A DNA stretch of 40,111 bases from a virus. The position numbers were made by a program, and so were the translations under genes. Positions 14,322-38,703 of this stretch are shown piece by piece. The notes under the pieces were generated by a model that made no database searches, had not been told where the DNA came from, and was given only the letters and a program-made list of their open reading frames with translations. Numbering within the stretch: the stretch's first letter is position 1; each line of letters begins with the position of its first letter. The stretch lies in the IMG/VR virus record IMGVR_UViG_3300030503_000341, positions 1 through 40,111 of that record; one strand, written 5' to 3'.

Positions 14322-14338
14322 CAAAGAAAGAGGACGCA

Positions 14339-16067: not shown

Positions 16068-16259
16068 ATGGAAGCACATCAGGAACGAGTAGTTACCGAA
16101 AAGAAGGAACTCGACGAGAAGATCGAGAAGCTGAACACGTTCACCGACGGAGATTTCTTCAAGACTCTTCCGCTCATGGAGCAGTCTCGCCTCGCCCGCC
16201 AGCTTCACGCGATGACGACGTACTCCGAGATCCTTGGGGAACGTATCGCTGAGTTCTAG
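16068..16259 (+). CDS. crAss001_48-related small phage protein
   Basis: The ATG at 16068 follows AAAGGAC and AACCGCCATGG. The 63-residue product begins MEAHQERVVTEKKELDEKI and ends YSEILGERIAEF, the pattern of a short helical phage protein often annotated as crAss001_48-related. It should be a helical hairpin. It is the last gene of the rightward block and its stop shares the CTAG with the convergent large terminase nuclease gene. The function is not known. Confidence 0.75.
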   Translation: MEAHQERVVTEKKELDEKIEKLNTFTDGDFFKTLPLMEQSRLARQLHAMTTYSEILGERIAEF

Positions 16260-17431: not shown

Positions 17432-18198
17432 TAGGCCCTCGCCATCGTGGCGTCGTTGGTGAAGTCGTAGTACCAGCCGGCGTTCGCCGTGGAGTTGAGA
17501 ACGATCTTGCGTACACCCGAGGCGCGCGCTTCGTCGTAGGCTACCTCAGCTTCAGGCTGGAAGGCTGTCTCGTCCGAGAAGATGCCCCACGGGTGGTAGG
17601 AGCGAATCTTGCCGATGCCCGACGGGATGACGTGCATCACCGACGTCCCCACTCGAAACTCACTGGAGGGCTGCTTATCGAGGGGTTTAGGTAGGGGGAA
17701 GGCGTCGCGTAGCCACTGGGGTTGGCTCGCATAGAGATGCTTCGCGTAGGAGATAACCTCGAAGCCCTTCTCGTCGGTCATAGTCTGGACGATGACTTCC
17801 CGCTCGGCGACCAACTGGCACTGGAGGGTGAAGTATCCTGCGATCGTCCATGTCGCCATCATGTCTCGCGACTTCTCGATCAGCTTGACCCTCTCCGAGT
17901 CGTCCTCCAGGTACTCGCACAGCGGCCGGACGAACGGCCATGATGGGAAGGCTCGGTAAGGGCTCTCCCAGCCGTGATCCTTCCAATGCGGGTTGAAGGT
18001 CTTCGTGTATCTCGTCAGCCATGTGTAAGTGTCCGCAGTTGCTTCGCGAATCTTTTCAGCTTGCTCACGCTTCTCTGTGTCGGAGAGCTTATTGTCAGTA
18101 CGACGGGCCCGGTCGAACTCTTCCTGCTGTTGCTCTAAGGCGTGGGCAGCAAGGGCGGCAAGGTGAATCTGGCGGAGTTGCGCATCTGTGTACTGCAT
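17431..18198 (-). CDS. Terminase large subunit, ATPase part (separate gene)
   Basis: The ATG at 18198 lies five bases from the stop of the small subunit gene. The only nearby ribosome-like site (AAGGG) is close to the start. The 255-residue product holds the motor half: a long N-terminal helix, the adenine-binding YRAFPSWPFVRPL region, the degenerate Walker A KSRDMMATWT (109-118), Walker B GIFSDE (205-210, D209 and E210) and the coupling motif LNSTANAGW. These drive DNA translocation through the portal. The protein ends at residue 255 where a normal terminase continues into the nuclease, which is instead encoded by the gene starting at 17431. Confidence 0.85.
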   Translation of the reverse strand: MQYTDAQLRQIHLAALAAHALEQQQEEFDRARRTDNKLSDTEKREQAEKIREATADTYTWLTRYTKTFNPHWKDHGWESPYRAFPSWPFVRPLCEYLEDDSERVKLIEKSRDMMATWTIAGYFTLQCQLVAEREVIVQTMTDEKGFEVISYAKHLYASQPQWLRDAFPLPKPLDKQPSSEFRVGTSVMHVIPSGIGKIRSYHPWGIFSDETAFQPEAEVAYDEARASGVRKIVLNSTANAGWYYDFTNDATMARA

Positions 18199-18770: not shown

Positions 18771-21700
18771 CTATCTCCTGTGGGCGCTTCGGAAGGCTGC
18801 AATCTGCTTCTTCCGCATGATCGGCTGGAGGGCTTTCTTCTCATCCGGCGTCGCGTGCTCGAAAACGTCCTTCGCATCAGTATAGCTAAGGTGCATGACG
18901 ATCTTCTCGAGCTCCGTCATGTTGCGCGTCTTCAGCGCGTACCTGGCCTGCGCGTGAGTGGGTGGCGCTTCCTTGGATACGTCCTTCTCGGTCTGCTGCT
19001 CTGGAGTGAGAGGTGCGTGAGGGTCACTCGTCTCCCGCAGCTTCTCTGCACGCGCTACCGAACGGGTGTCGTCCATGCCCTTCGGAGCGCCGCCGATGAG
19101 ACCCAAGGTGCGCTCGACCTTCGTGGTGGTGTCCTGCGCGCCTGCCTTGTTGTTGTAGCTGGAGGCTGTGATCGGCTGGTAGTTCTTCTCGAGGTTGTAG
19201 AAGATGCCTTGCTTGAACGCGTCAAAGCCCTTCCCTGGGTTCGGGTTCCAGACGTAATCGCCCTTCCAATCCCGGTTGCGGATTGTCTCGATGATTCCAG
19301 TCAGCCACGGGGCGAGCGAGTTGTAGGCGTAGGAGCCGAGGCCAGTGACGGCGTGCTCATAGTCGCGCAGGTCGGCAGGGATATTGAAGCGTACAGGCTT
19401 ACCGTGGGGGTCAGTCTTGCCGGTGCGGGGATGGAGCGCCTCGAGGTCAGCAGCCTCGAGAACATTCAGCCCGTTGTTCTTCATGTCGTCTGCGATCTCT
19501 TCCCATATCCACTTTCCGGTGAGCAGCTTGTCGAGCGTGGTGGCGATGGCGGTGGCGACGATGACAGAGGCGACCAGCCGGCCGCTGTTCAGGCCAAGCT
19601 GCGGGAGACGAGCGGCGTACTTGTGAGCCCAGTCCTGCTCCTTCCCTTCAGCCTCTACCTTCTCGTAGAACTTGTCGTCGTAGTTCTCCGTAAAGATTTC
19701 CTTCGCCGCTTGCGCCGCACCACGCCATGTACCAGCCTTCCAGCCGGGGGCGAGGAAGAGTAGTTGGATCCCGCTCTTGACGGTGTTGTTCCAGTAGAAG
19801 TTCTGATAGTTCATCTCGCCGAAACTGTTCTCGTTGGTCGCTACGACGTTACGCGCCACGGTCTCAGGCGTGACGTCGCCGTTCGAGATGGCTTGCGAAT
19901 ACTGCTCGAGTTTCTGGGAGAGCATCTGCACGTTCGCCATCAGCTTGAGCCGCGGGATGATGTAGTTGAAGAGCGGATAGGCCACGGCGCGCGACAGCCA
20001 CGGCATCACCTTCAGCGTTGCGGCGCCGAGACGCCCTTCCGCAAGGTCGTGGCCGGGGCTCATGGATGCCTGGTCGGGAAAGTCTTGATTCAGCCCAGCA
20101 CGGAAGCCGCCGGCGTAGACGAGGCGCAGGAGCTCGGGAAGATCTGGATAGTCCTTCGCCAGCTTGACGCCCTCTTTGGTGGCGAGGAAGCCGTCGGGGT
20201 CCTTGAGGTAGTTCACGATGCGCGCTCCGCCGTGGACCATCGTGAGGGGTGCAGCGATGGACGTAGCTACCTTCTTCGCGCCGTTGAACATATCCGCAGG
20301 GTCTAGCCCACGCAGGCCACGGTTGTAGAACTCGTCGAGACCACCGTGCAGGCTGGAGGTGATCGACCAGAAGGCCATCGTCCCGTAGTGGAAGGCGGAG
20401 AAGCCCATCTTGAACGCGGTCGAGGACGTCTTGAGTTGAACGAAGCCCTTGCCGATTTCAGAGCCGCGGATGTAGTCCTGGCTGAGATAGTTATTGAAGA
20501 GCCGGCCGAAGTCCTTATCCATCACCCACTCGCCGCCTTCGACGAACATAGTTCCACCTTCCGCAGTCTCCACGGGCCGAAACACTTTGGCGATCTTGTC
20601 GTTGACCTTCACGAAGTTCGGCGGCATCTTACCGCGGGCCGACTTGTAGACGATCAACCCAGCTTGCCGTCCGTTCCACAGAGCGTGCTGGGCAGCAACA
20701 AACTTCGCGCCCTCTTGCAGCCTGCGCAGGACCATGCGTACCGGGTTGCCCAGCGGGACCGCCCCATCCGCTACCGCGTTCTTAAGGGTGTACTTTTGCT
20801 GCTTCCTGAATGTCTGGGGTCCTGCGAACGGCCGCTTGGAGAAGATGCGCGCCATCTGCTCATCGTCGGTCGGTAGGTCGCCCTTGCCTGGGGCCTTGGA
20901 GTAGCGGTTGGGGAAGTAGCCAGCGCGATCAGAGAGCGCAACTTTGTTCTTGCCGGTGCGCCCAAGGTTGACCGCTGCCTGCTCTGCCATGCGCTGAGGC
21001 TCAAGGACGGCCTGCAGCATCTCTGCGGCGTGCTGGAGGTCTGGGGTGGGCTGCTCTTTTTCATTCTGGATGCGGTCGACGAACTCAACCCAATCCTTCT
21101 GCGGCATCCCCTCGAACATCTTGTCGATCCCGTCGAGGAAGAGGCTGGCCTTGAAGAGCTCGAGGGCAGGCTCACCGAGCGCACGGCCCATGATGTCGCG
21201 AGCGTCAGAGTCAGCAAGCATCGCAGGATAGAGAACGCTGGCAATCTCGTAGCCGATAGCCTTGGGCGTCTTCTTCACGGTCCCGATGGCCTTGGACAGC
21301 TCGCCCCAGGTCGCGGGTACAGCCTTCTGGAAGTAGGGAATCACCTTATTCGTGATGAAGCTGGGGAGGAGCAGGTCGACATTGGCGAATCCCTCTTCAC
21401 CGCCGAGGTACTTCTTCGCTTTGGAGGGCGGTGCAATCTCACCCTTCTGCGCTTGCTCGTCAAACGCTCGCGCCTGCTTCACGCCGCTGGCGGGAGCGTA
21501 AAGGGCCGTCTTGCCCATGATGACTCCGACGGCTTCCATCTCGTCTCCGTCCTTTACGATGCCCTTCATCATCCCGCCGGAGGATGCGAAGTCTCCACCG
21601 ACGACGAGTTCGCGCAACCGAGGGTCGAGGAAGAACTTGCCGGAGACAGACTTCGATAGCTTCGTGCGGATCTCCATCGAGCCATTTTTGATCCACACGC

Positions 21701-24700
21701 CAATCTCCTGCCCGCTGGACTGAAGGACGGCGTTGTCGCCCTTCTTCATGTACTCGTAGGCCGCATCAGGCGAGCGCATCGCGTAAGTTTCAGAGACGTC
21801 CTTGTTGATGTCGAACTTGCTCGGCATCTGGATACCCAGCGCCGTGGTGCCGTCGTTCTTCGTGAAGCTGATGATGCGGCCCTTCACGCCAGTCTTCAAC
21901 TCGCCGTACGCTCCCAGCAGGTTGCCGGTGATGATCTTTGTTTTCTGCCGGCTGTCGCCCAGGTTGTCGCGGAACAGATGGTTGATGTCTGCATTGCGCC
22001 CGAGATTCGATATGGTGATCTTGTCGATCTGGGAGCCGGGTACGCGGATCTGGCGCAGGGGCGTATTGACGGCGAGGGTGAACTGCAGCGAGCTAGGCGC
22101 ATACGGGTTTCCGCTCGTCTTCTTCGACCCTTCGATATTGATTACTACGGCGTGGCTGGAGTCGCCGTTGATCTCGATGCCGAACGCCGAGCCAACGCGG
22201 TACTCGCTGAGAAGCTGGCGACCCCGCTGCCGCATCCCTTGAGCCTTCTCGATGGCGGCAGGAGTGGAAAGCGTCTCCACATAGGGGGTGTAGAGTTCTT
22301 CAAAGTGGGCAGCAAGAGAGCGAGCGAAGAGGGTGTCCCGCTCGTGTGGCGGCTTCTGCATCATCTCAGGGCCATAGGTCTCTGCCAGCTTGCCTTGCAC
22401 CTCATCGGGGGTGAATGCCTTGCCCTGGCGCTTGATCGAATACTCCCCATAGAACGCGTCCTGACCGAACGGCGAGCTGGGGTCCGTACCCTGGTACATC
22501 CGCTCGTTATGAGTCTCGCGGGCGTCGTAGTCGTAGGTGACAGGCTCGAGGTCATTCTGCCCAGTCTCGTCGAGGAAGTCGATGTAATTGCTGTACGCCT
22601 CAGTGATCGCGTCCATGAAGACTTGCTGCTCTTTGACTGTCAACAGCGCCGAGTGCCCCGTCGCCTTCATTGCCAGCCCTTCGTTCGCGGCGGCGTCACC
22701 CTTCGAGTCAGTCTCCGCGTCCAAGCCCAGCAGCTTCGAGGACTCAGGATTGTCCAGCAGGTATTGAGCGACGATCTTGTCGCCGTACTTGTTGAACATA
22801 TCGACAGCCTTCACCGACGTTGCCGAACGCGTGTTACTCGATACGTTGGCATTGAGGCTCTTCATCTTCCGAGCGAGTACGATCGCTGGCCGCATCTCGG
22901 CGGGGAGCGCGGCGGCAAACATCGTGTAGCTGGGGAGTTCGACCTGGCCGGTGCGGTTGATTCGTCCAAGCATCTGCATCACGACGTTCACGTCGCCTGC
23001 AGGCTGCCCGACGATCATGTGCCGCGGGCGCTTGTCGAGGAACTTCTCAGAAGCGTGGAGCGAGATTCCAGCGGCGGCTGCCTTGTTGATTACGAGGGCA
23101 TCGATGCTTCCATTGTTGAACTGCGTCGCCGTGTTCACGCGGTCTTTGCGTTCGATGTCGGGCACCGTGCTCAACCTCGGAACGTCGCCACTGTAGTCGA
23201 TGCGCAGGTCGCGGCCTGTGATCTCCGCCACCTTGTAGCCAGCCTTCTCCACGCGGTCCCGGATGTGGTCGAGGGGAGAGACGGGAAGATCGACGTCCAG
23301 CTTGTCGATGAGGGATTGGGCATAATCGTAAGCCTTGCGGGTATCGTCACCCAGCTTCTCCAACGGGACCTCGACGCGCGTCTTGTTGCCCATCTCGTCG
23401 GTCTCGTTGTAGTACCGGGTGCGCATCAGGGCTCGGTCGCTGATCTTCGAGTAGGTGAGGTCCTTCAGGGAATCGCCGTGCGAGATAGCGTTGCCGTCGA
23501 CATAGTTACCCAGGAACGATCCCATCGTGTTCTCAAGGGCGTAGACGGGACGCTCACCCCGTTCGATTGACGCGATGATGAGGTCGGCGGAGGAGTCAGC
23601 CTTGAGAGCGAGGAGGAGCTGCTTCACCATGTTGTGAACGGTGGAGGAGAACTCCATGTGGCTAACGCTCAATCCCTTGCTGCCAGCCGCTTTGCCTTCC
23701 TTCTTCGCCTGCGCGTAGATTCGGTCGAAGTCGTTCTCGTGGTAGATTTTGTCGGCCTTCATGATCGCGCGGAGGACTTCGGTAACCTTGTCCGAAATCT
23801 TCTCGTGCTTCGCCTTATTGTCGACGTCCACCACGTTCTTGATGTCGATCCCGTCGAAGGAGCGCTCACGGCGTACGAACTGCCCAGCCTGCGCCAATTG
23901 GCTTGTCACCACAGCCTGCAGCGGCGCACCACCCGCAGCGATCGCGTCCGCAACCTTCTCTTTGTCGGGGATCGCGATGGAGATGTCCGTCTTCCCGGCG
24001 TAGACCGGAAGGTTGTCGGGCCGCTTTGCCCACGTGGCCGACAGGAATACGACGCCCTTCGACTTACCGATTACCTCAGCGATGAAGTCGCCAGTTGCCG
24101 ATGCTCCCCCAGCGTTATGCGACTCGTCGAGGATGAACACTGCGTTGGGAGCCAAGCGATGAAGCGTCAACTGCTGGCGGTTGTCAGTGTTCACCTGGGA
24201 GTAGGAGAGGAAGAGCGCGTTGCGGCCTGGCGGCATGGAGCCGGTCTCGCGGATGCGGTCCATCACCGGCTTCATCGAGCCATTGTTGCGGAAGATCTTC
24301 TCGCCTGTCGTGCGGTTGGTGATCGACGCGTCACCATTCAGCAGGAGCGGGCTGATCGTGTTGCCAGAGCCGATGTCGGTGAGGTCGCCGTACATATCAG
24401 AGAAGAGGGTAGGCTTCTCGGTCACAAAGATGGGGAGGTGTCCGTGCAGTTCGGCCCATCGGATCATGGCGGCTGCGACGCGACCCTTGCCTACGCCCGT
24501 CTGGTCGGCAATGATGAGCGCCTTACCCATCTTCAACTGGTGGATAGCGGAGGCGATAGCGTCGGTTTGGATGCCCATAAACGCGGCGTGCAGCTCGTCG
24601 AGGTCCGGATATCCCAGCTCGTTGGCAACAAACTCGTCGATGTCTCCTACGTCCTTCGAGATGTTGTCCATGGCGCTGTGCATGGGGCCAATCAGCGCCT

Positions 24701-27700
24701 TGGGGGCCATCACGCTTACGTCCTTCTTCTCGGAGCGCGGGCGGTATGTCACCTGGAACTGGTTCGACTCATCCGCCAGCGCGTTCGATGCGTCTAGGGA
24801 AGCATCTGCAGGATGTCCATCAAGCTCGGAAGGTTCTCGTCGGACAACTCGCGGGGCGGGTTGGTTTTCTGCCAGTCGATCTGAGAGAGCAACATCCCCG
24901 TCTGATCGAGTTGTAATATCTGGGCTGCCCACTGGTGGGGCTGGGACCCGACTGGAATGGCTGATAATTCCGGGTTTGGCTGGCTCGAGGTCTCGCCCAT
25001 CGCCCGTATCTGCTCCTTCGCTTTCGCTGGGTCGGAGAGAATTTCCTTGTTCAGCAGGTCGGTTAGAAGCTCCCGGTACTGATTCTGTGGCGGCGTGTAG
25101 TTGGCTTGCACTGCTAAGCTCATCGTTGGTTCGGGGTCTCCCTTCAAGATTGGAGCCCAGATGCTCACTTGCTTTGGCATACACTTCCTCCCATGTCTTT
25201 AGGCGGTTGATTTCCTCGGCGACGGGACTCACTTTGGCGGTACGGGCCCTGCCGTCGATTGCGATGACGCGCACCGGGAAAGATGCGCCCTGTCTCGCGT
25301 AAAAGTCTCCGTCGAGCTCGAAGTCAGAGACCACGTTGTAGTGCGAGTAGATGTAGTTGAAGAAGGGGCGTGCTGCGTTGGTCACATCCCCTGCGCGTTC
25401 GCGGTTGCCGGCGCCGAGAATGATGGCCGCGCGACCGTTATCCTTCATCACGCTGAGGGCCTTGACGGCGATCAGGTGATCCAGCTTCACGATGGAGTAG
25501 CCATCATATTTGGTTGGAGCGTCCAGGCTTCCGAAAGGTGGGTTGGCAACCACCGCATCGAAGGTCTTTGACGGGACCCAAGTAGTTGCGTCCTGTCGCG
25601 TAACAGAGAACCCTTCTGAGTCCAGCGTGGTGGCTCGCGCAGGGTTGAGTTCGTTTGCCAACGTTCGGTCAGGGTTGGCGGAGATCAGGAGCGCCCCATT
25701 GCCCGCCGTCGGCTCGTAGACGGTCGAGGAGCGGTCGATGCCGGCGAAGCGGTCTGCGACGTAGGCGAGGGGGAGCGGCGTCGAGTACGCCTGATTTTCA
25801 ATGCTGGTCGAGGTGCGAATGGAGAGGTTCGGCTGCCCCTCGTAGACTTTGACCAGCGCATCGAACTTAGACTGCCCACCGTAGCCCGGGCGCTCAACGA
25901 TCTCGCGTCCATACCGATTGAGCATCGTCTCGAAAGCCTCTTGCGCTTCCTTCATGCGAATCTGCGTTGGCTCGGTCCCGTCGAACTTGGCAACGAAAGC
26001 CTTCAACTCGTTGTAGTTCTTCGGAGCGCCCGCGCCGTCCACCCCGTAATCGAACCGCAGGGCATCCACGAGCGACATCTTCGATCCAGCCGCAGGCTCG
26101 CCGGCTATCGGCGTCACGTCGTCGATGTTCTTGTTGACAGTCGAGCCGTTGTCGGTGATGCGGACTTTCTTCCCGTCGGTCCACGCGACTTCGCCCTGAC
26201 GCTCCTTGCCCTTCGTGGTCTTGTAGGTGACCTTATCGCCCTTCGCGAGCGGCTTCGTCTCAGCAACCGGCGTTGTCGTCTCGTTGTTAGCTGGTTTCGT
26301 CTCTTCAGCTAACAACTGGCTAACAGGGGCGGCTTCCGCCTTAATCCCCTCCTCGAACTGCTCCTTGGTAAGCTCAGTCCCGAACGCGACGTTGAAGTCG
26401 AGGACAGGATTCGGATTCTCGCCTGGTGACGATGCGGATACCGCATAGGTAGAAAAGGCCTTGCGTAGATCCTCTGGCGGTCCATCGAGAGCCTGAATGA
26501 GCGCGTCGACCACTTCGCCGTACTCCTCGGTGTCGGCACCCTTGAAGGCGTTGCCGTACTCAACGACTGCCTTCTCGATAGCGGGCTTTAGGTTCCACTC
26601 GGGTCCCGCCTCAGCGATCGAACCGATGGCACCCATCGAGCCAAGCAGTTTCTCGCGGACGAACGGAGGGGCGTGCTCCACCACTTCAGGGCTGAACAGG
26701 GTAGACAGGAGAGCATCTCCCACCTTCGTACGGGCGCGCGTTGTCAATAGGGCGGTTGCAGGATTCACGTCGTCATCACTATTGGTGATTATGCCATCAT
26801 TCACGAGGGCTTGGGTGATTAGTTTTCCGTCGCCCTTGGAACGCAGGACGCTATCGAGGGAGGCGGTGGGGTCATCGGCTTTGACAGCCTCGACGATCTG
26901 GTGGAGTCCTGATGCGGCCTCGGGGGTCAGCTTGACCGGGCGCTCGTTCTTTAGTTCGCCAGTCTTGAGGGCTGCGTGAATCTCGTCATTGGTGTCCGGC
27001 GATGCGTTTGTCCATCCCTTGTCGCCTCCAGCTTCGTGCAAGGCGGCGTTGCGGAAACTCCATCCCTTCTCTCCGTTGTAGTAAACATCGAGGTCGCGGT
27101 CCGGCCAATAGAGTGGTTTCTCCATCGAGCCTATGGACATTCCGCTGCCGACGATGTCCTTCACCGCTCCGTATAGATTGGTCGGTTTTTTCCCAGACTT
27201 ACTCGCCGGGAGCTGGCCTACTTTTGGCTCACCTCCCGTTTGCTGTGCCACTTCGCGTGCAGACTGTTGATCCTGCTCGTCCCGCGACTGGCCCAATTCT
27301 GGCTCACCACCGCCAGCCTGTGCCACCTCCGTCGGGTCGAGTTCTACCGGCTCACCCTTGGCTCCCTTGAAGTTCGCCACGATAGCATCGAGAGCGCCTT
27401 GGGGGTACTTCTTATCCCGCGCGGCCTTGCGAATGTCTGCAGCGCTCACCTCGGGCGCGTGGTAGTACGTCCCACTGAACGCCCCAGCGCCGTTTACCTT
27501 CGTCTTCGTGAGACCGTCGACGCCGGCAGGAACAAAGTCTGACTTCGCTCCCACGTGGAGGAAGGGGTGCTCACCATTCTTTACGCCGTCAGCCCAACGC
27601 TGCATCTCCGTCCTACTCTTACCCGGCTCCGCGGGTCCTGTCATCGCCGCCTGCGCCTGATCCTCGAGTGCGTTGGCCCGGCGGGTGATCTCCTCCTGCA

Positions 27701-29402
27701 CCAGAGCTTTGCGTACCGGCGTCGTCACCATGGCGGTCTTGCGGATGATCTGATCGAAGTGGTCACCGGTGGCGTCTGGGGGAGCGCCCTGAATCGCTGC
27801 TCGAGCTTTGTCGACCTGCGGGCTTTTGGGGATTTGCACAGCCGGTGTGGATTCTGTGGGTTTCTCGGTCTCGGTCGGGGTAAGCGCTTCATCCCGTTCC
27901 TCTTGCGCGGTCTGCAGGTTTTCCTGCTTCTCCTGCGCGGCGGACTCAGTGGCCTCCTTCTGCTTGTCCATCTGGGCATTGATAATCTTCGTCGCAGCAG
28001 CCTGCGCGCCCTTGGGGGTGTCTACGTTCACCACCTGGTTCTCAGGGTCGATGATCGTTTGCTTATCGTGGATCCAGCGGGAGAGTTGCTGGACCGCCTG
28101 CAGGACCATCTTGGGTCGCGCGGCCGGCGGCATCTCCTGAATAGCCTGCGTCGCTTGATCTAGGGTCTCTTGCGTCAAGTGGCCGTCATCCATGCCTGGA
28201 GGGCTTGGGATCTTCGGCGGCGGGGGCGGCGGCGGGAGTGACCCGGTAGCCTGCTCGGCCTTGACCTTCGTGTCGCGCGCGGCGGAGGCGAGGCGGGTGA
28301 CCTCGGCAATCTGCGCTTGCGCCTGTACTTCGGGAGCAGACGGGGGGGCTGGCGGGGTGCTGGCGGAGGGCGGCGCGGCTGGCCCACCCTCTCCCCCCGG
28401 AAGCTGCGGTGTACCTGGCTCGGCGGGTGCCCCACGGCCTCGAGGTACGCGAACACCCACCGAACCTACGCCTTTGACTCCTGCGCGAATCTCTGTTGCC
28501 TCGGGACTCTGGACGACGCCAACACCGGCAGTCCCACTCTTGTTGCCGGCCATGTAAGCGGGGTTTCCAGCCTCGTCGACGCCCATCGCTTCATGCACGG
28601 AAGCCAGCCCAAAGAGGCTCGGGAAAAAGAACGCGGAGGTTGTCAAGAGCCCTTTTGCTTCAGGAGATAACTGGAAATGGTCGGAAGCAAGACCAGCGCC
28701 ATAGCTTGCGCCACCGCCCACCGCCAGCGAGCCGCCGAACTTCGCCAGCGCGATCTGAGAGGCCAAGTCGCCACCGATTGCCGCTTGAGCGATCTCTGCA
28801 ACCTCTGGCGCTCCGACGACCATGGCAACAGTCCCGCCGCCGGCAATCGTCTTCGTGAGTCCGACAATGACCTGCTTCCGCGCTGCAGCTTGATCGGCAG
28901 CAGAGAGGGGTTTCGACACTGTTGCGGGCGTATTTGAAGGTGCGCTGGCTGCTTGGTTCGTGTCGTACTCAGGATGGGACTGGGCATTGAGCCCGGTGGC
29001 GACGTCACTGATGCCGGTGGCAAGTTGGCGAACAGGCGCGGTGATCTCTTGATTGGCGGCATGGAGGCGAGTCTTGAAGTCCTGATTTTGGCCAGCAGCG
29101 ATCGCAGGATCCAGTTTCGCCTGGGGGATCATGTGCTCGTCGTCGCTCATATCGGGAGCGGCAGCGTGGGCGGGGAGGGTGGGAAGGGATTCGCCCGGGG
29201 CTAATCCCGCTGGCTGATTGGCGTAGGGGTTCTTTGGACCCTGCTGGTCGCTGCCAGCTACCTCGCTGGGGTCAAGTGTCACCGGCTGCGGGAGACGAGC
29301 GGCAATCTTCGCACCCTGATCCGCGACGGCTTGGACGTTATCCGGGTGGAGCTCGGGCGCGGCGACTTCGCTTGGGTCGAGTGTGACTGCTGGCGTTCCC
29401 AT
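18771..29402 (-). CDS. Giant DarB-like polyvalent protein: adenine methyltransferase plus strawberry-notch helicase
   Basis: A single uninterrupted frame of 3543 codons starts at ATG 29402, with AGGAG ten bases upstream. The first 1200 residues are mostly disordered and Pro/Ala-rich, with a hydrophobic stretch near residues 190-290. An N6-adenine methyltransferase follows: YEPTAGNG (1229-1236, SAM binding) and NPPF (1287-1290, catalytic). After a disordered linker comes an SNF2-type helicase of the strawberry-notch kind: TGVGKGR (1635-1641), DESH (1759-1762), SAT (1788-1790) and LGRINRTGQ (2145-2153). The last 900 residues are helical with hydrophobic segments. P1 DarB has the same methyltransferase-helicase pairing and is injected to protect phage DNA from restriction. 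Position in the structural block before the terminase suggests it is packaged and ejected. No catalytic motif is visibly broken. Confidence 0.85.
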   Translation of the reverse strand: MGTPAVTLDPSEVAAPELHPDNVQAVADQGAKIAARLPQPVTLDPSEVAGSDQQGPKNPYANQPAGLAPGESLPTLPAHAAAPDMSDDEHMIPQAKLDPAIAAGQNQDFKTRLHAANQEITAPVRQLATGISDVATGLNAQSHPEYDTNQAASAPSNTPATVSKPLSAADQAAARKQVIVGLTKTIAGGGTVAMVVGAPEVAEIAQAAIGGDLASQIALAKFGGSLAVGGGASYGAGLASDHFQLSPEAKGLLTTSAFFFPSLFGLASVHEAMGVDEAGNPAYMAGNKSGTAGVGVVQSPEATEIRAGVKGVGSVGVRVPRGRGAPAEPGTPQLPGGEGGPAAPPSASTPPAPPSAPEVQAQAQIAEVTRLASAARDTKVKAEQATGSLPPPPPPPKIPSPPGMDDGHLTQETLDQATQAIQEMPPAARPKMVLQAVQQLSRWIHDKQTIIDPENQVVNVDTPKGAQAAATKIINAQMDKQKEATESAAQEKQENLQTAQEERDEALTPTETEKPTESTPAVQIPKSPQVDKARAAIQGAPPDATGDHFDQIIRKTAMVTTPVRKALVQEEITRRANALEDQAQAAMTGPAEPGKSRTEMQRWADGVKNGEHPFLHVGAKSDFVPAGVDGLTKTKVNGAGAFSGTYYHAPEVSAADIRKAARDKKYPQGALDAIVANFKGAKGEPVELDPTEVAQAGGGEPELGQSRDEQDQQSAREVAQQTGGEPKVGQLPASKSGKKPTNLYGAVKDIVGSGMSIGSMEKPLYWPDRDLDVYYNGEKGWSFRNAALHEAGGDKGWTNASPDTNDEIHAALKTGELKNERPVKLTPEAASGLHQIVEAVKADDPTASLDSVLRSKGDGKLITQALVNDGIITNSDDDVNPATALLTTRARTKVGDALLSTLFSPEVVEHAPPFVREKLLGSMGAIGSIAEAGPEWNLKPAIEKAVVEYGNAFKGADTEEYGEVVDALIQALDGPPEDLRKAFSTYAVSASSPGENPNPVLDFNVAFGTELTKEQFEEGIKAEAAPVSQLLAEETKPANNETTTPVAETKPLAKGDKVTYKTTKGKERQGEVAWTDGKKVRITDNGSTVNKNIDDVTPIAGEPAAGSKMSLVDALRFDYGVDGAGAPKNYNELKAFVAKFDGTEPTQIRMKEAQEAFETMLNRYGREIVERPGYGGQSKFDALVKVYEGQPNLSIRTSTSIENQAYSTPLPLAYVADRFAGIDRSSTVYEPTAGNGALLISANPDRTLANELNPARATTLDSEGFSVTRQDATTWVPSKTFDAVVANPPFGSLDAPTKYDGYSIVKLDHLIAVKALSVMKDNGRAAIILGAGNRERAGDVTNAARPFFNYIYSHYNVVSDFELDGDFYARQGASFPVRVIAIDGRARTAKVSPVAEEINRLKTWEEVYAKASEHLGSNLEGRPRTNDELSSASQLHAATESVPGASNRPAEQGNSLRPSESEGADTGDGRDLEPAKPGIISHSSRVPAPPVGSPDITTRSDGDVALSDRLAENQPAPRVVRREPSELDGHPADASLDASNALADESNQFQVTYRPRSEKKDVSVMAPKALIGPMHSAMDNISKDVGDIDEFVANELGYPDLDELHAAFMGIQTDAIASAIHQLKMGKALIIADQTGVGKGRVAAAMIRWAELHGHLPIFVTEKPTLFSDMYGDLTDIGSGNTISPLLLNGDASITNRTTGEKIFRNNGSMKPVMDRIRETGSMPPGRNALFLSYSQVNTDNRQQLTLHRLAPNAVFILDESHNAGGASATGDFIAEVIGKSKGVVFLSATWAKRPDNLPVYAGKTDISIAIPDKEKVADAIAAGGAPLQAVVTSQLAQAGQFVRRERSFDGIDIKNVVDVDNKAKHEKISDKVTEVLRAIMKADKIYHENDFDRIYAQAKKEGKAAGSKGLSVSHMEFSSTVHNMVKQLLLALKADSSADLIIASIERGERPVYALENTMGSFLGNYVDGNAISHGDSLKDLTYSKISDRALMRTRYYNETDEMGNKTRVEVPLEKLGDDTRKAYDYAQSLIDKLDVDLPVSPLDHIRDRVEKAGYKVAEITGRDLRIDYSGDVPRLSTVPDIERKDRVNTATQFNNGSIDALVINKAAAAGISLHASEKFLDKRPRHMIVGQPAGDVNVVMQMLGRINRTGQVELPSYTMFAAALPAEMRPAIVLARKMKSLNANVSSNTRSATSVKAVDMFNKYGDKIVAQYLLDNPESSKLLGLDAETDSKGDAAANEGLAMKATGHSALLTVKEQQVFMDAITEAYSNYIDFLDETGQNDLEPVTYDYDARETHNERMYQGTDPSSPFGQDAFYGEYSIKRQGKAFTPDEVQGKLAETYGPEMMQKPPHERDTLFARSLAAHFEELYTPYVETLSTPAAIEKAQGMRQRGRQLLSEYRVGSAFGIEINGDSSHAVVINIEGSKKTSGNPYAPSSLQFTLAVNTPLRQIRVPGSQIDKITISNLGRNADINHLFRDNLGDSRQKTKIITGNLLGAYGELKTGVKGRIISFTKNDGTTALGIQMPSKFDINKDVSETYAMRSPDAAYEYMKKGDNAVLQSSGQEIGVWIKNGSMEIRTKLSKSVSGKFFLDPRLRELVVGGDFASSGGMMKGIVKDGDEMEAVGVIMGKTALYAPASGVKQARAFDEQAQKGEIAPPSKAKKYLGGEEGFANVDLLLPSFITNKVIPYFQKAVPATWGELSKAIGTVKKTPKAIGYEIASVLYPAMLADSDARDIMGRALGEPALELFKASLFLDGIDKMFEGMPQKDWVEFVDRIQNEKEQPTPDLQHAAEMLQAVLEPQRMAEQAAVNLGRTGKNKVALSDRAGYFPNRYSKAPGKGDLPTDDEQMARIFSKRPFAGPQTFRKQQKYTLKNAVADGAVPLGNPVRMVLRRLQEGAKFVAAQHALWNGRQAGLIVYKSARGKMPPNFVKVNDKIAKVFRPVETAEGGTMFVEGGEWVMDKDFGRLFNNYLSQDYIRGSEIGKGFVQLKTSSTAFKMGFSAFHYGTMAFWSITSSLHGGLDEFYNRGLRGLDPADMFNGAKKVATSIAAPLTMVHGGARIVNYLKDPDGFLATKEGVKLAKDYPDLPELLRLVYAGGFRAGLNQDFPDQASMSPGHDLAEGRLGAATLKVMPWLSRAVAYPLFNYIIPRLKLMANVQMLSQKLEQYSQAISNGDVTPETVARNVVATNENSFGEMNYQNFYWNNTVKSGIQLLFLAPGWKAGTWRGAAQAAKEIFTENYDDKFYEKVEAEGKEQDWAHKYAARLPQLGLNSGRLVASVIVATAIATTLDKLLTGKWIWEEIADDMKNNGLNVLEAADLEALHPRTGKTDPHGKPVRFNIPADLRDYEHAVTGLGSYAYNSLAPWLTGIIETIRNRDWKGDYVWNPNPGKGFDAFKQGIFYNLEKNYQPITASSYNNKAGAQDTTTKVERTLGLIGGAPKGMDDTRSVARAEKLRETSDPHAPLTPEQQTEKDVSKEAPPTHAQARYALKTRNMTELEKIVMHLSYTDAKDVFEHATPDEKKALQPIMRKKQIAAFRSAHRR
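24794..25180 (-). CDS. Candidate overprinted gene inside the giant polyvalent gene
   Basis: A 128-codon frame lies on the same strand as the giant gene but in another frame. Its ATG at 25180 has GGAGG six bases upstream. The product (PKQVSIWAPILKGDPEP, then QYRELLTDLLNKEILSDPAK, ending LPSLMDILQMLP) looks like a normal helical protein, while the giant gene's own frame here encodes a disordered linker between methyltransferase and helicase. The third codon positions of the inner frame are also rich in G and C. It may be a real overlapping gene, or the likeness may be chance. Function unknown. Confidence 0.4.
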   Translation of the reverse strand: MPKQVSIWAPILKGDPEPTMSLAVQANYTPPQNQYRELLTDLLNKEILSDPAKAKEQIRAMGETSSQPNPELSAIPVGSQPHQWAAQILQLDQTGMLLSQIDWQKTNPPRELSDENLPSLMDILQMLP

Positions 29403-30203
29403 TTATCGATTGCTCCTGTTTCCTACGTTACTCCGGGTGGGGAGTGCGACGGGCTTTCCAGCCAGTAAATCATCGGTCGGGGTGACGCCCAGCCCTGCAA
29501 CGCCATACGGCAGTCCCGGAGCGGCCGGTGCGGGCGCGAGTGGCGCTGGCTTCCCTACGCCAAGCATCGTCTTGAGTGGCGGGAGGGAGTCGCTGAACGA
29601 CTTAGGTTGTGCGGCGAGCTGCTGAACGAGGGGGTGGTAGGCCCGGTAGCTCTGGTGCATCGCGTTCTCGTCCGCAGGGGTCAAGGTTCCTGCTTCGGCT
29701 TTCGCGAGATACGCGTTCTGCTTCGCCTGGTAGTGAGAGACGAGATCGGCCTGCTGCTCGCGGTTAAAGTCCGCAACACCTTTTCCCGCGGCTTGAGCAT
29801 CGAGGAGTGCCTGCTCTCCCCCGTAACTGTAATTGTTGGGGTCGCCATATTGTCCCGTCACTGGGGCTGATGTGGGGTGAGATCCGAAGACCGGTAGCTT
29901 ATAACCTCCGCCAAGCGGGATAGTCCCGTCGGAGCGGGTGTCCTGGTCCTCATGCTCCATCTCGTGATTGCGGACGTCGGTGGTGTATTTGTTGGGGTCG
30001 AATACAGCAATCTTGCCGGGAGTTGCTTCTGCCACAGTCTCGGTGCCCGCCATATCAGGGGCTCCCTGTGCGCTCTTCGGCTGGATGGACTGCTGGATTT
30101 TGCTCGTGTCGAGGTCTTTACGGATGAACGTTGGGATTGTCGAATCATCCTGCGTCGCGGGCGAAAGGTAGGCGGGATCAAAGGATGTGGGAGTAGCTGA
30201 CAT
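29403..30203 (-). CDS. Putative virion zinc metallopeptidase (HEMEH motif)
   Basis: The ATG at 30203 follows GAGGGAGAG. The 266-residue protein contains IAVFDPNKYTTDVRNHEMEH: the HExxH zinc motif at residues 80-84, preceded by a strand and an acidic loop like the DUF4157-type peptidases found in injection systems. A later EQQAD (149-153) offers the third zinc ligand of a gluzincin. N- and C-termini are Pro/Ala-rich and disordered. It is encoded directly before the giant protein and could process it, process another virion protein, or act in the cell after ejection. The motif is clear; the activity is inferred. Confidence 0.6.
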   Translation of the reverse strand: MSATPTSFDPAYLSPATQDDSTIPTFIRKDLDTSKIQQSIQPKSAQGAPDMAGTETVAEATPGKIAVFDPNKYTTDVRNHEMEHEDQDTRSDGTIPLGGGYKLPVFGSHPTSAPVTGQYGDPNNYSYGGEQALLDAQAAGKGVADFNREQQADLVSHYQAKQNAYLAKAEAGTLTPADENAMHQSYRAYHPLVQQLAAQPKSFSDSLPPLKTMLGVGKPAPLAPAPAAPGLPYGVAGLGVTPTDDLLAGKPVALPTRSNVGNRSNR

Positions 30204-30213
30204 AGGCTCTCCC

Positions 30214-31671
30214 TCAGTATTTCACTTGCGGTTTACCCTTGGCGTCGAAGCCCACAACCACTCCCCGGCGTCCGTTCACTACGACGGGCGTGTTGATCGT
30301 TACCTTGGCACCGCTCTTCGCTTGGTAGACGGGTGCAGGCTGCTGTTGCTGGGATGCTGCAGGAGGCGGAGGAGCGGCGGCGGCCGGCTGGGGGTTGCGC
30401 GAGAAGCGGTTGCTTACCGTTTGGCCCTGCTCGTTCACCATCGTTCCACTCTTGCGCATCACAGGGTTAGCGTTCAGGTCGGTCCTGAATTTGGCGAGTC
30501 TCGCGTTGAACTCCTGCTGTGTCACAGGGTTCCCACTCTTGTCGACGAGAGAGCCATCATCCAGTTTTGTGAGCGAATCGACGTAAACCTGCTTGTCGTT
30601 CATGCTCTTCGCTATTACTTCCCCGGGGCCCTGCGCGCCGTTGCCGTTCCCATTTCCGCCAGGGGCCACAGCGGTACCGTCTGGATTCTCGCGGATGTTG
30701 ACGCTCGTGTGCTCGGTGGGCTCCGAGAGTTTTCCGTTTGCAAGGAAGTATTGGCGCTTGTCGCCCTTCAGCCCAATCTGGTCGGCGGCGGCGGCGCGCT
30801 GCTTCAGCGTCATCTGCTGGGTGGCCTGCTGGCCCTGCGGCGTCTTTATCCAACGGTTGATGAAGGAGTCCGGTGGGGGTGCGCCCTTGATGGTCTTGCC
30901 GCCGGCTGTTGTAGCGGTTCCACCAGCATAGGGATTGCTCGGGTCATCCGGAGTAAAGGAGGTGATGGCGTTCGCTCTGGCTTCCGCCTGTGCTGCATAA
31001 TCCTGCGCGCGAGCTGCACTCTGTTGGCCGCGGTTCTGATTTTGGTAGTTTTGCTCGGCCAAAGTGTTTTCGCGGGTAGTGATCTCGTTGCCCTTATCGA
31101 CGGCAGCGTCGGCGGCTTGATCTGCGTTCAGCCGCGCTTGGATCGGTGCTTCCTGCGTAGCCCATCGCGCCTCCGCGTCCGTGCGTGGGCCATTCATAAT
31201 TTCTTGCCCGATTCGCGCTCCCACTTCTGAATTACGCGACCCAAACCCTGCGGCTCCTGCCGACAGCGCGGCAAGTATCTTACGCCCCACGCTAGGTTTT
31301 ACATTCTCCGCTGCCTCTGCCGTTTTCTGGGCAGTCATCGCATTTCTGTCGGAGGAATGGTCAGTATAGGCTGCGTAATTCTTGAGGGTCGGGGGCGCAA
31401 TCGGATTCGCGTAGACGCTTGTGTCCGCGGATACCGGGGCCGAGCTCTGGTCCATATCCTGCGTAGGCGCTTGGCTATCATCGTCGGCTCCTGCAGGAAC
31501 AAGGTAAGACTGCGCTGATTCGTCGGTTGTGCCAACGGCTGCTGGCTGCGCTGCCTGGGGAGTCTCCTGCGGCGCACCATCCTCATCATCGCCGGTCAAC
31601 GCGGACGCGACCCTTGCAGATGGAGTCTGGTCGTCATCTGCCGTTGAATCGCTGCTAAATACGTTCGCCAT
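30214..31671 (-). CDS. Putative internal virion protein, 485 aa, largely disordered
   Basis: The ATG at 31671 follows GGGAGCC. The protein is rich in Ala, Gln, Asp and Pro. Residues 1-95 are acidic and disordered. The middle has helices and a short basic Gly/Ala segment (KPSVGRKILAALSAGAAGFG). The end holds a small beta motif (VVVNGRRGVVVGFDAKGKPQ). This composition and its place between Hint-domain and metallopeptidase genes fit an internal or ejected virion component. No family is recognised. Confidence 0.65.
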   Translation of the reverse strand: MANVFSSDSTADDDQTPSARVASALTGDDEDGAPQETPQAAQPAAVGTTDESAQSYLVPAGADDDSQAPTQDMDQSSAPVSADTSVYANPIAPPTLKNYAAYTDHSSDRNAMTAQKTAEAAENVKPSVGRKILAALSAGAAGFGSRNSEVGARIGQEIMNGPRTDAEARWATQEAPIQARLNADQAADAAVDKGNEITTRENTLAEQNYQNQNRGQQSAARAQDYAAQAEARANAITSFTPDDPSNPYAGGTATTAGGKTIKGAPPPDSFINRWIKTPQGQQATQQMTLKQRAAAADQIGLKGDKRQYFLANGKLSEPTEHTSVNIRENPDGTAVAPGGNGNGNGAQGPGEVIAKSMNDKQVYVDSLTKLDDGSLVDKSGNPVTQQEFNARLAKFRTDLNANPVMRKSGTMVNEQGQTVSNRFSRNPQPAAAAPPPPAASQQQQPAPVYQAKSGAKVTINTPVVVNGRRGVVVGFDAKGKPQVKY

Positions 31672-31683
31672 GCCAGAGGCTCC

Positions 31684-32694
31684 CTATCTCGTCGCTGCCA
31701 ATTGATCGCCCACGCGATTCCAAGTTTCCATACTCACTTGACGCTCAGCTTCTCCAACCCCCAGAGCCCAGATACCGTCCGCGCGGTAGGTGTGCGATCC
31801 GTCGGTGATGATATTGAAAGCCAAGTCCTCTCCGTCGGGGGTTACGCTTATGACCTTGCTGCGCCCTTTGGCGGTGATGATGGTCTTACCGAGCGCGTGA
31901 ATCGCCACGACGAATCCACCGACGGGCAGAGCATAAGCGTGAGTGCGAGAGTTGCGAGCGACGAATCCATTTTCGGTCTCGATGCGAAGGAGGGGCGTAA
32001 TGCCGACTTGAATCTCCTCGATGCACTGATCCTCTGAATCGATGCCAGCGAGCAGTTGTCCGACCTGCAAGGTTTCGACAGGAACCTCGCTGCCGTCGGG
32101 AAGAAGATACATAGAACCTTTTGCTGGGCAAAAAGCCCCTCCCACTGATCCTGCTGCTGTGATTCCAGCATCGATCATCCCATCGTTCGCTTGCTCCTGC
32201 GCGTCTTCGCCCTGCTGGGCGGTCCCGAGCGTGCTGTTCTGCCCGCCGAGGGAAGTGCCATAAAGTCCAGCTTCTTCCGATGATCCTGTCGCCTCATCGC
32301 CGAGCAGCTTGTCCTGCTGCCCCAGCCAAGTGTTCTCGTTTTGCTGAGCGGCTCCGGCGTTGTACTGCGTTAGGTCCCGCTGCCCTTGGCGAGCACTGGA
32401 AGCTACAGTATTCGCGAGCGCCGCACTATTGGTGCCCGTCTTGGCGACCGTACTTCCGAGAGCCTGCTGCTCCGCGTTATTCGCAGAGTTCATCGCGCCA
32501 GAGGTTGAAAGATTTTGATTGGTTAGGTAGTCTTTAGATTCGAAGGGATTGCCAGCCGCGAGCGTGGAATTGACATTGCTAAGGTAAGTGCCGATATCGC
32601 CCTGCGCTGCGCCAAAAGAACTGGCGGCGTTACTGGCGTCCGTTGAAGCTGCGGCGTTGGCTACTTGGGCTTGGTTACCAGCCGCGTTTGACAA
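31684..32694 (-). CDS. Virion protein with C-terminal Hint domain
   Basis: Translation starts at a TTG (32694) that follows AGAGGAG with six-base spacing. The first 185 residues are Ala, Asn, Gln and Ser-rich and resemble internal virion proteins of short-tailed phages. Residues 189-313 form a Hint domain, the self-splicing fold of inteins and hedgehog proteins: Cys189 at the start (CPAKGSMYLLPDGSEVPVET), the TH pair (T251, H252) in SRTHAYALP, and SHTYRADGIWALG (His301). The usual terminal His-Asn is missing, so N-terminal cleavage without splicing is predicted. The domain sits at the end of the protein, leaving about 25 residues after it. Confidence 0.75.
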   Translation of the reverse strand: MSNAAGNQAQVANAAASTDASNAASSFGAAQGDIGTYLSNVNSTLAAGNPFESKDYLTNQNLSTSGAMNSANNAEQQALGSTVAKTGTNSAALANTVASSARQGQRDLTQYNAGAAQQNENTWLGQQDKLLGDEATGSSEEAGLYGTSLGGQNSTLGTAQQGEDAQEQANDGMIDAGITAAGSVGGAFCPAKGSMYLLPDGSEVPVETLQVGQLLAGIDSEDQCIEEIQVGITPLLRIETENGFVARNSRTHAYALPVGGFVVAIHALGKTIITAKGRSKVISVTPDGEDLAFNIITDGSHTYRADGIWALGVGEAERQVSMETWNRVGDQLAATR

Positions 32695-32743
32695 TGGACT
32701 CTCCTCTGAGCAGCCCGAAGAGTATCACGCGAAACGTAAGCGC

Positions 32744-33184
32744 CTAAAGGTCGCGGGTCCAGCGGGAGAAGGTGTTGTCCTCGCATTGAAAGCCCAGATA
32801 CTCGAGAATCACCGCCATCTTATCCTTGAGGCTTTTACGGGTCCTGATGGTGGCCGTCTTGAAGCCCATGCCGCGCAGGTATTCGTTGAGCTCGTCAGCT
32901 ATTCCAGCCGTCTCGATGAGCCCCGTTTCGCTGCACCCAACCTTCACGATCTCCACTTGCGCCTCGAGATAGAGAGCGTCGACGATCTGCCCTATCCCAT
33001 CTTCGGCTACCAGCGTGAGGATTACGGGGCGCGCGAATAGTTCAGGTTTCTTTTGGACTTCGCGCAGGAGGCGTTCCGACGCTTCTCGGAGCCTGTCGAT
33101 CTCCGGCTGATCTTCGGGGACGGCGAGGCGCCATGTCAATCTTCCCGTGTTGCGCGAGTAGTCCTTCCAGTAGTTCGCATCCAT
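32744..33184 (-). CDS. GNAT-like acetyltransferase fold protein, 146 aa
   Basis: The ATG at 33184 overlaps the previous stop in TAATG; a GTG at 33199 is an alternative. The protein shows the order RLAVPEDQPEIDRLREAS, two central strands (VILTLVAEDG, then DALYLEAQVEIVKVG) and a C-terminal helix and strand (LNEYLRGMGFKTATIRT, then ILEYLGF), resembling phage GNAT relatives encoded near tail genes. The acetyl-CoA loop (R/Q-x-x-G-x-G/A) is not convincing, so it may be structural. It lies in the tail module. Confidence 0.45.
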   Translation of the reverse strand: MDANYWKDYSRNTGRLTWRLAVPEDQPEIDRLREASERLLREVQKKPELFARPVILTLVAEDGIGQIVDALYLEAQVEIVKVGCSETGLIETAGIADELNEYLRGMGFKTATIRTRKSLKDKMAVILEYLGFQCEDNTFSRWTRDL

Positions 33185-35130
33185 TATGAGATCACCCATC
33201 CACCTGAAGTATAGACGTACAGTGTCGACGTCGTTTCATCGAAGGCCAGGTCACCAATGAACGATGGGGCTGTTGGCGGGGTCGTTACCACCGTCGCTCC
33301 GCCGGCCGAGTAGCCAACACTCAACTGCGCGAACCCGATGCGAGTAGGGTCTACCGTGCTCACGGCCGTAATCGTATGGCCGCCGCTCGCCACAGGAGCG
33401 GTATAGAGTCCTGTCCCGTCGATCATTCCCACTGTCGAGTTTCCGCCGGCGATGCCGTCGACGTTCCATGTGACAGTTGTGGTTCCCGTGCCCGTGACTG
33501 TCGCGGTGAACTGCTGGGTTCCCAATGGGCCAACGATGGCTTGGCTTGGATTCACCGAAACGACAATGCCAGGACTTCCGGGGCTTACCGTCGCTGGCGT
33601 GGCCCAGCAGAAGGCGAACCAGTTGACGTCTCCGCTCCAGCTATTTCCTGAGCCGTCGATGTAGGTGAGCCGGCAGGTCGTTCCCGAGATATCGCAGAGC
33701 GAGATGACGTGCATATCGTTGTCTCCACTGCCCGAGTAACTGCGCGGGCTCGGGATAGCAGCCATCTGGTCAGAGGTGAATCCCGTCGGCAACCCGAAGC
33801 TCGAACCGGAGGAGACATGGCCAGCTCCGAAGGCAATGCGATTCCCGTCGGCCAAGGCGATGATGACAAACTCGCCGCCCGTCACAGTCGCCGTTACGAG
33901 CCCGGGCGTCCACGCGACCGCCATCCAATTTGCCGTGCCCGACCACACATTGCTCCCACTGGCGACGTCGGAGTAGGTTGCCGACACCGTGAGTCCCGTG
34001 ATGCTGCAGGAATTGACGCCGTGCATCGCGTGGCCCGTGTAAGCGCCGCCCTGAATAGTGGGGATCGCCAGCATATTCGCAGCGGCGATCCATGGTGCGG
34101 CTGCTCCCGGGACATAAATGTCGGTCCCGTCGGCGGCGTTTCCAGAGCCGAAGGCTATCTTCGCTCCACCGGGGAGGGTGATGACGACCCACGAGGATAT
34201 GCCGTCCGTGCTGTCGTAGACGGTCGTATTGACGCCGGTAGGATCAAAGGCAATCGCCATGACGTTGGCGTTCCCGCTGTACTGGCTCTGAGGGAAGTTG
34301 CGATCACCGTACTTCATGCTGATGAGCGCGGGGAAATCCAGAATTCCAGAAGCTCCGGCAGTTCCTCCGGTTGGCTCCTGCAGGACGATCTCGCTCGTTA
34401 GGATGTTCGTCACCTGGGGAGGCTCTGTGTTGAAGCCGTTGGGCGCGGTGAGGGAGAACATGGCTGAGGTGTAGAGGTTGCCGGTAGGCAAGCCTATGAT
34501 GTCTCCGTCGGAACCGAAGCCCTGTCCGACGCCGATGGTCTCATCACCTGGCAGTGTGAAGACCGCCCAGACCATGTTCGTCTCGGCTTCGACTGTGATT
34601 TCCGAGATTGAGGTTCCCGTCGCTATGTTCTTCCAAGTATTGAAGTTTATGCCGTCGTAGGTTGAGCGAAACTGAAAGAACCAGCGTCCAGTTCCCAATC
34701 CTGTCAGCGTCCAGTAAACTTGCGCGCTGCCCGTATCGCCGCCGAAGGTTTGCGTGTTTGAGTTGACGTTGAACGCAGGAGTCGTCGAGGCTCTGATCTG
34801 GTGATAGATGGCTTTGACAGCTTGGAGATTGGTCGTCGCCGTGGCTGCTTGTCCTGCGGCGGCTGCTTGGATGGAACTGATGGGGTTGGTCGCTCCTGGG
34901 TTGACGATCTGGACGATGTAGCTGCCCGACAGGAGACTGGCCGTGCCTCTTGCCTGCGGTGGGACTGGGGCGTTAGGATTGGGCTGTCCTGCTACCGTTT
35001 GCGTCGGGATAGTGCCCGTCACCGTCTGCTGTTCAACGGTGGCTTGCTGCATCTGATTGAGCACTTCGCGCAGACTGCTCATGTTTCCCTGAGCGGCTGA
35101 GTCGATCTTCTGCTGCGAGATGTTCGCCAT
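33184..35130 (-). CDS. Tail spike or fibre-like protein with tandem beta repeats and Ig-like domain
   Basis: The ATG at 35130 follows AGGATAG. The 648-residue protein has a short helical N-terminus (QQKIDSAAQGNMSSLREVLN), then a beta-rich body. About residues 188-510 hold three tandem repeats marked by [VI][IV][IT]LP/ADG-x-x-I-[AG][FV]G and a W-[MF]A[VF][AC]W closing strand. Near residues 515-610 is a bacterial Ig-like domain with QAIVGPLGTQQFTATVTGTG and TVTWNVDG, ending in FAQLSV. This phrasing is typical of Acidobacteriota proteins. Position between nozzle-like and GNAT-like genes suggests a receptor-binding or adhesive tail part. Confidence 0.65.
   Translation of the reverse strand: MANISQQKIDSAAQGNMSSLREVLNQMQQATVEQQTVTGTIPTQTVAGQPNPNAPVPPQARGTASLLSGSYIVQIVNPGATNPISSIQAAAAGQAATATTNLQAVKAIYHQIRASTTPAFNVNSNTQTFGGDTGSAQVYWTLTGLGTGRWFFQFRSTYDGINFNTWKNIATGTSISEITVEAETNMVWAVFTLPGDETIGVGQGFGSDGDIIGLPTGNLYTSAMFSLTAPNGFNTEPPQVTNILTSEIVLQEPTGGTAGASGILDFPALISMKYGDRNFPQSQYSGNANVMAIAFDPTGVNTTVYDSTDGISSWVVITLPGGAKIAFGSGNAADGTDIYVPGAAAPWIAAANMLAIPTIQGGAYTGHAMHGVNSCSITGLTVSATYSDVASGSNVWSGTANWMAVAWTPGLVTATVTGGEFVIIALADGNRIAFGAGHVSSGSSFGLPTGFTSDQMAAIPSPRSYSGSGDNDMHVISLCDISGTTCRLTYIDGSGNSWSGDVNWFAFCWATPATVSPGSPGIVVSVNPSQAIVGPLGTQQFTATVTGTGTTTVTWNVDGIAGGNSTVGMIDGTGLYTAPVASGGHTITAVSTVDPTRIGFAQLSVGYSAGGATVVTTPPTAPSFIGDLAFDETTSTLYVYTSGGWVIS
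33600..34570 (-). repeat. Three degenerate tandem beta-domain repeats (about 85-105 aa each)
   Basis: Within the gene at 33184-35130, the motifs AVFTLPGDETIGVG, VVITLPGGAKIAFG and VIIALADGNRIAFG begin three successive units. Each ends in a strand such as VMAIAFD, WMAVAW or WFAFCW. The last two are most alike at the DNA level (AAGGC[AT]AT-type start and a shared GATGAC), which implies duplication with later divergence. Confidence 0.6.
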
Positions 35131-35138
35131 GAGCTATC

Positions 35139-37892: not shown

Positions 37893-37919
37893 TGATTTCC
37901 ACTCCCCGCCGTCAGAGGG

Positions 37920-38651: not shown

Positions 38652-38703
38652 GGCATTACTCCTTAGCCGGCGATTAGTCCCGGGCTTTCGGAAGAGTATC
38701 ACT

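Follow-up and report, generated by a model that had tools for sequence, protein, structure and literature searches.

A probable overprinted gene in the methyltransferase-helicase linker of phage and plasmid polyvalent proteins

Organization of the locus

The window, that is, the whole stretch of viral DNA analysed (40,111 nucleotides; IMG/VR record IMGVR_UViG_3300030503_000341), carries on its minus strand a giant gene of 3,543 codons (18771..29402) for a polyvalent protein with a methyltransferase (MTase) and Strawberry-notch-type SF2 helicase core, hereafter the host gene. The N-6 DNA MTase domain (25254..25808, minus strand) is defined by a phrog_9133 match at host residues 1199-1383; an N6_Mtase match at residues 1273-1332 falls below the cut-off. 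Helicase domain 1 (AAA_34; 23805..24524, minus strand) occupies residues 1627-1866, with an AAA_34/ResIII match at 1612-1866, and Helicase_C_4, the Strawberry notch C-terminal domain (22752..23273, minus strand), occupies residues 2044-2217, such that AAA_34, ResIII and Helicase_C_4 together span residues 1612-2217. With an N-6 adenine MTase joined to an SF2 helicase C-terminal to it, on a mobile element, the host gene belongs to the DarB-like class.

Between the MTase and helicase domain 1, which form the upstream and downstream flanks of the overlap, lies a second frame (24794-25180, minus strand) that is in the +1 frame relative to the host gene, stays open for 128 codons from an ATG at 25180 to a TAG stop, and covers host codons from about 1408 to 1536. 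This candidate overprinted gene, P0001, would encode an acidic orphan protein. A Shine-Dalgarno (SD) motif, GGAGG (25187..25191, minus strand), is separated from the inner ATG by a 6-nt spacer, and a TAA stop in the inner frame (25199..25201, minus strand) lies seven codons upstream of the start, which argues for independent initiation and against a frameshift product. An earlier note on this DNA had described a 128-codon same-strand frame with this ATG and a GGAGG six bases before it, situated over the linker between the MTase and the helicase; all of these features are present as described, and the frame does fall between the two domain matches.

Several other features of the window were recorded. 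The strand opposite the giant gene carries a GroEL-like chaperonin gene (14276-16030, plus strand; phrog_5725, E 5e-108) at a distance of about 2.7 kb from the giant gene's 3' end. Similarity to the terminase large subunit within 16256-18198 (minus strand) is confined to 17431-18198 (255 aa, E 2e-6), and PHROGs gave no match for the adjacent 391-aa open reading frame (ORF) at 16256-17431; a divergent or a split terminase may account for this. Eight consecutive ORFs (29403-39429, minus strand), including ones of 917 and 648 aa, lie upstream of the giant gene; they lack a PHROG match at E 0.001 and are possibly divergent virion genes.

Openness of the inner frame in the window

Taken alone, the window sequence is weak evidence, as the open frame is not beyond chance. 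The inner frame remained open in 43% of trials in which the host codons were resampled, and in 6% of trials in which its own synonymous codons were permuted. The alternative frames of the host gene hold 22 ORFs of 90 codons or more. Such single-sequence codon-shuffle tests are weak for individual loci, because the amino acid make-up of the linker already avoids stops, and they are not the main argument; the significance of the inner ORF comes from comparison with relatives.

Conservation across homologous host genes

A search with the inner protein identified five IMG/VR contigs (56-63% identity) in which the ORF occupies the same site of a homologous host gene. About 120 homologous genes were subsequently gathered using host-region alignments, and of 122 loci an automatic scan scored 117 as having, at the equivalent place, a +1 ORF of 90 codons or more. 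One of these, the 95-codon ORF of L079, passed the length filter and was rejected as a non-member of the inner family, while three of the five misses (L077, L080 and L107), at first taken as loci lacking the ORF, were recovered by profile. The corrected count is 119 of 122 homologous MTase/Strawberry-notch-helicase genes, spanning GC contents of 0.37-0.71, and the inner gene is missing only from L079, an Acinetobacter phage (L009) and a locus of a metagenome-assembled genome (MAG; L002). The 122 loci include near-duplicates and yield 101 distinct inner proteins once L079 is dropped; a family profile matches 100 of these, and for 78 there is a match to a profile built without them. In the +2 frame, a comparable overlap was found in just 2 of 122 loci. 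Some homologues, L077 and L080 among them, have host linkers of about 400-540 aa, far beyond the needs of the inner gene.

In the clade of the window, the inner frame is open with a start and a stop in 7/7 sequences. As a control, the host gene's 22 alternative-frame ORFs were followed in the six close relatives, and only the inner ORF was full-length and free of stops in all of them. The earlier note had proposed asking of related phages whether start, stop and a low dN/dS in the inner frame are kept, and had named a conserved host protein with stops in the inner frame as the contrary outcome. Start, stop and low inner-frame dN/dS proved to be kept, and the opposite of that contrary outcome was observed in 119 of the 122 homologues. 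The same note had spoken of overprinting in one giant gene; the overprinting stands, although it is not limited to that gene and the inner ORF instead accompanies the whole MTase-helicase clade.

Translation start

The inner start is ATG in 98 of 102 distinct inner ORFs. An SD match of at least 5 nt precedes 58% of homologous inner starts compared with 7% of background +1-frame ATGs; the start-picking script favoured SD and ATG, so these start and SD figures are somewhat inflated. For the window clade, the inner start was fixed by alignment. An inner-frame stop occurs no more than 10 codons upstream of the start in 91/117 homologues (median 4 codons). The retained SD and ATG, together with the close upstream stop, indicate at the level of sequence that the inner gene has a translation start of its own.

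Selection on the two frames

In the window clade, differences per host codon position (first/second/third) are 0.17/0.13/0.50 in the upstream flank and 0.20/0.13/0.52 in the downstream flank, compared with 0.36/0.24/0.25 inside the overlap, where the fast site moves to the inner third position. The two frames were further separated by sorting changes according to their effect in both (dNN/dNS for the inner frame, dNN/dSN for the host) with our own script, which is OLGenie-like. The inner dNN/dNS is 0.22-0.48 in 13 viral clades, and the same frame in the flanks gives about 0.6-1.1 for most clades; the exceptions are the downstream flanks of G11 (0.51) and G13 (1.33), both with wide intervals. 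These are the two least diverged clades, and their inner dNN/dNS intervals overlap those of the flanks. The host dNN/dSN is 0.7-1.7 in the overlap versus about 0.1-0.2 in the flanks in nearly all clades. Four plasmids of the Picosynechococcus group behave likewise, with an inner dNN/dNS of 0.27 [0.18-0.40] and a host dNN/dSN of 1.38 in the overlap versus 0.13 and 0.07 in the flanks.

Thus, the substitution pattern flips inside the overlap in 14 clades (13 viral and the cyanobacterial plasmid clade), and in each of the 13 pairs compared, conservation is higher for the inner protein than for the host residues that share its bases. The combination of a low inner dNN/dNS and a raised host dNN/dSN means that selection there acts mainly on the inner protein. 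This pattern is indicative of purifying selection on the inner-frame amino acids, beyond any effect of the host frame, and the host stretch beneath the inner ORF appears to be a linker with almost no constraint on its protein sequence.

The inner protein

The inner proteins comprise 92-160 aa, corresponding to overlaps of about 280-510 nt. Acidity, found in 96% of them (median pI 4.45, median net charge -9), may arise partly from frame and base composition. AlphaFold2 predicted the window protein with mean pLDDT 87.1 and pTM 0.74, and an inner protein of the L036 clade with mean pLDDT 89.1 and pTM 0.84. Compared by the order of their elements, without superposition, both models exhibit an N-terminal strand, two long helices, two shorter helices and a C-terminal helix. 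The two clades are approximately 17% identical in sequence and are joined by a profile-profile match at E 2e-9; for the cyanobacterial inner profile the match is at E 5e-9. Profile matches to the rest of the family are weak for the Bacteroidota-type and the short (~95 aa) inner proteins, whose common descent is weakly suggested, mainly by position and frame. That the product should look folded, unlike the linker, had been claimed from the window sequence; the confident predictions, along with a near-neutral host linker, agree with this view.

No relative of the inner protein was found in Pfam, PHROGs, NCBIfam, PADLOC or PDB sequences, and Foldseek searches with the inner-protein models, outside the cellular proteins of AlphaFold DB, returned nothing below E 2. 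DUF2656 (Pfam, E 0.069) and other weak hits to single members were rejected as chance. The earlier suggestion of an antirestriction or ejection factor finds no backing in these searches, which revealed no sequence or fold likeness to known antirestriction, defence or ejection proteins. An exclusively virion-related or ejection role is also disfavoured by the occurrence of the inner gene in plasmids such as pAQ6 of Picosynechococcus PCC 7002, a mobilizable plasmid whose host gene has about 2,000 codons.

Distribution in phages and plasmids

Among phages, gp3 of Bacteroides phage BS-TP4, which has been isolated, contains an unannotated inner ORF with its ATG at record position 10032 or 10044, and a portal gene adjoins this host gene. 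The plasmids with the inner gene are pAQ6 of PCC 7002, those of PCC 7003, PCC 7117, NIES-970 and Leptolyngbya NIES-3755, Chroococcidiopsis pB, and a plasmid of Thalassospira lucentensis. The inner frame of pAQ6 occupies NC_010480 100507-101013 on the minus strand, stop included; for PCC 7002, a laboratory strain, stop-to-stop proteomic searching of the chromosome and six plasmids has been published (PMC3364912). In the annotated records examined, no gene is listed for the inner ORF, the PLSDB gene tables being incomplete; the lack of annotation follows from its being hidden in another frame of a large gene. In pAQ6 (L137), the MTase-helicase gene that bears the inner ORF is set apart from a further, stand-alone N-6 methylase gene by a small hypothetical gene and one for a RelE/ParE-type toxin (2251-2833).

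Five homologous MTase-helicases without the inner gene occur on proteobacterial plasmids (Yersinia, Xanthomonas, Bordetella, Pseudomonas and Cupriavidus), and the inner gene is also missing from Acinetobacter phage MD-2021a and a Flavobacteriia MAG. The enzyme core can therefore do without it. In the host-domain tree, the plasmid and Acinetobacter homologues group near the midpoint root and the MAG sequence stands beside the Bacteroidota-type clade, a topology that would suit one early gain and perhaps a loss, the root of the tree not being fixed. Searches with the inner protein for a free copy found every relative inside a host gene.

Discussion

We consider it nearly certain, on comparative sequence evidence, that the inner ORF is a protein-coding overprinted gene. 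As to its role, the favoured reading, to which we assign a probability of roughly 60%, is that of an old nested gene whose acidic product of ~130 aa is a dedicated partner of the MTase-helicase with a role in DNA modification or shielding. Ribosomes would start at the internal SD/ATG within the MTase-helicase message and produce, in the +1 frame, a second acidic protein of about 130 aa, while the host stretch would be a nearly free linker joining the MTase and the helicase. The inner protein would then act either as a subunit or as a regulator or chaperone that restrains or positions the linked enzyme, and would serve the host protein's function, the modification or shielding of phage or plasmid DNA on entry. 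The partner role is suggested by strict co-occurrence, as the inner gene stays with the MTase-helicase core and no free copy was found. The core is the element shared by the phage and plasmid settings that carry the inner gene, and this linkage in both makes a partner of the core more plausible than an anti-defence protein acting freely or a chaperone of the virion. Linkage by itself is no proof of interaction, since a gene overprinted on another has little freedom to move elsewhere.

A possible but rather unlikely alternative is that the inner protein is a stand-alone factor against defence or restriction systems, for instance an acidic mimic of DNA that inhibits a restriction enzyme, its location being an accident of overprinting. 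T7 Ocr and ArdA are acidic antirestriction proteins. The inner protein resembles them in being small, acidic and encoded by elements that face restriction; it differs in that no similarity of sequence or fold to them was detected. The marked acidity of the family would fit such a factor, though part of it may reflect frame and base composition, and the database and Foldseek searches described above gave no match. Anti-defence genes tend toward quick turnover. The inner gene, by contrast, is held at one site throughout a deep clade. In favour of this alternative, host proteins of the DarB-like MTase-helicase class have been discussed as antirestriction proteins (PMC5512222).

Less probable still is a chaperone function in packaging or ejection, with the inner protein accompanying the giant protein as it enters and leaves the virion. 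P1 DarB is a component of the virion head (PMC5512222), and in the window and the phage homologues the host genes are very large and near packaging genes (the terminase fragment at 17431-18198; the BS-TP4 portal). However, the same selection is observed in plasmid genes of ordinary size (pAQ6 and relatives) that bear no sign of a virion role.

That no protein is made, the open frame being a by-product of codon bias or of a DNA or RNA constraint on the host linker, was considered and rejected as very improbable. GC-rich genes do hold many alternative ORFs, and the window alone is compatible with chance openness, but amino acid selection in the inner frame of 14 clades, the retention of start, SD and stop over the whole GC range, the lack of conservation of the host gene's other alternative ORFs, the rarity of +2 overlaps, and independent confident fold predictions in two clades all speak against it. 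Programmed frameshifting into an MTase-inner fusion with no separate protein, for which the +1 frame directly behind the MTase domain might argue, was likewise rejected, and is hardly credible, as the nearby upstream stops leave almost no room to slip and it is an SD/ATG that is conserved there.

The MTase-helicase dyad and DarB were described by Iyer et al. 2017 (PMC5512222), and a text search of that paper found no mention of a nested or overlapping gene. DarB-type polyvalent MTase-SF2 helicase proteins such as P1 DarB, present in phages and plasmids, share the dyad of the host gene; the host protein here differs in bearing the Strawberry-notch C-terminal domain. A 127-codon +1 ORF of P1 darB (L143; host residues 697-823) was considered as an equivalent and matches no inner-family profile. 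It sits shortly before the helicase Walker motif.

Out-of-frame nested phage genes are exemplified by Rz/Rz1 and by phiX174 B in A and E in D. As in these cases, one DNA stretch would specify two proteins, the inner one from its own start site; unlike them, the inner gene lies wholly inside a very large enzyme gene, occurs in phages and plasmids, and overlies a host stretch that is near neutral. A survey of virus reference genomes reported a median +1 overlap of 14 nt (PMC8903798), which makes the inner overlap unusual in length. Cas11 is an internal translation product of the CRISPR large-subunit gene (PMC11899642). The predicted arrangement here is similar in that a small protein would arise by internal initiation inside the gene of its large partner; Cas11, however, is in frame with the large subunit, whereas the loci examined have the inner ORF in the +1 frame, and its product has no residues in common with the host. 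A literature search among open-licence papers found no report of the overlap between the inner gene and an MTase-helicase.

The inner family is thus a widespread, anciently conserved protein family that lacks annotation in the records examined, and its range takes in several phage lineages as well as cyanobacterial plasmids and a plasmid of an alphaproteobacterium. It is a clear example of selection preserving, over a near-neutral host linker, a protein that is predicted to fold and for which no relative was detected. We see about even odds that the MTase-helicase clade encodes an obligate second subunit, an apparently new overprinted fold placed out of frame in the interdomain linker, with the linker serving mainly to hold the inner gene and the enzyme having been studied and annotated without its partner. 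The same DNA appears to encode two proteins, and the findings suggest that a partner of MTase-helicase anti-restriction proteins may have been overlooked.
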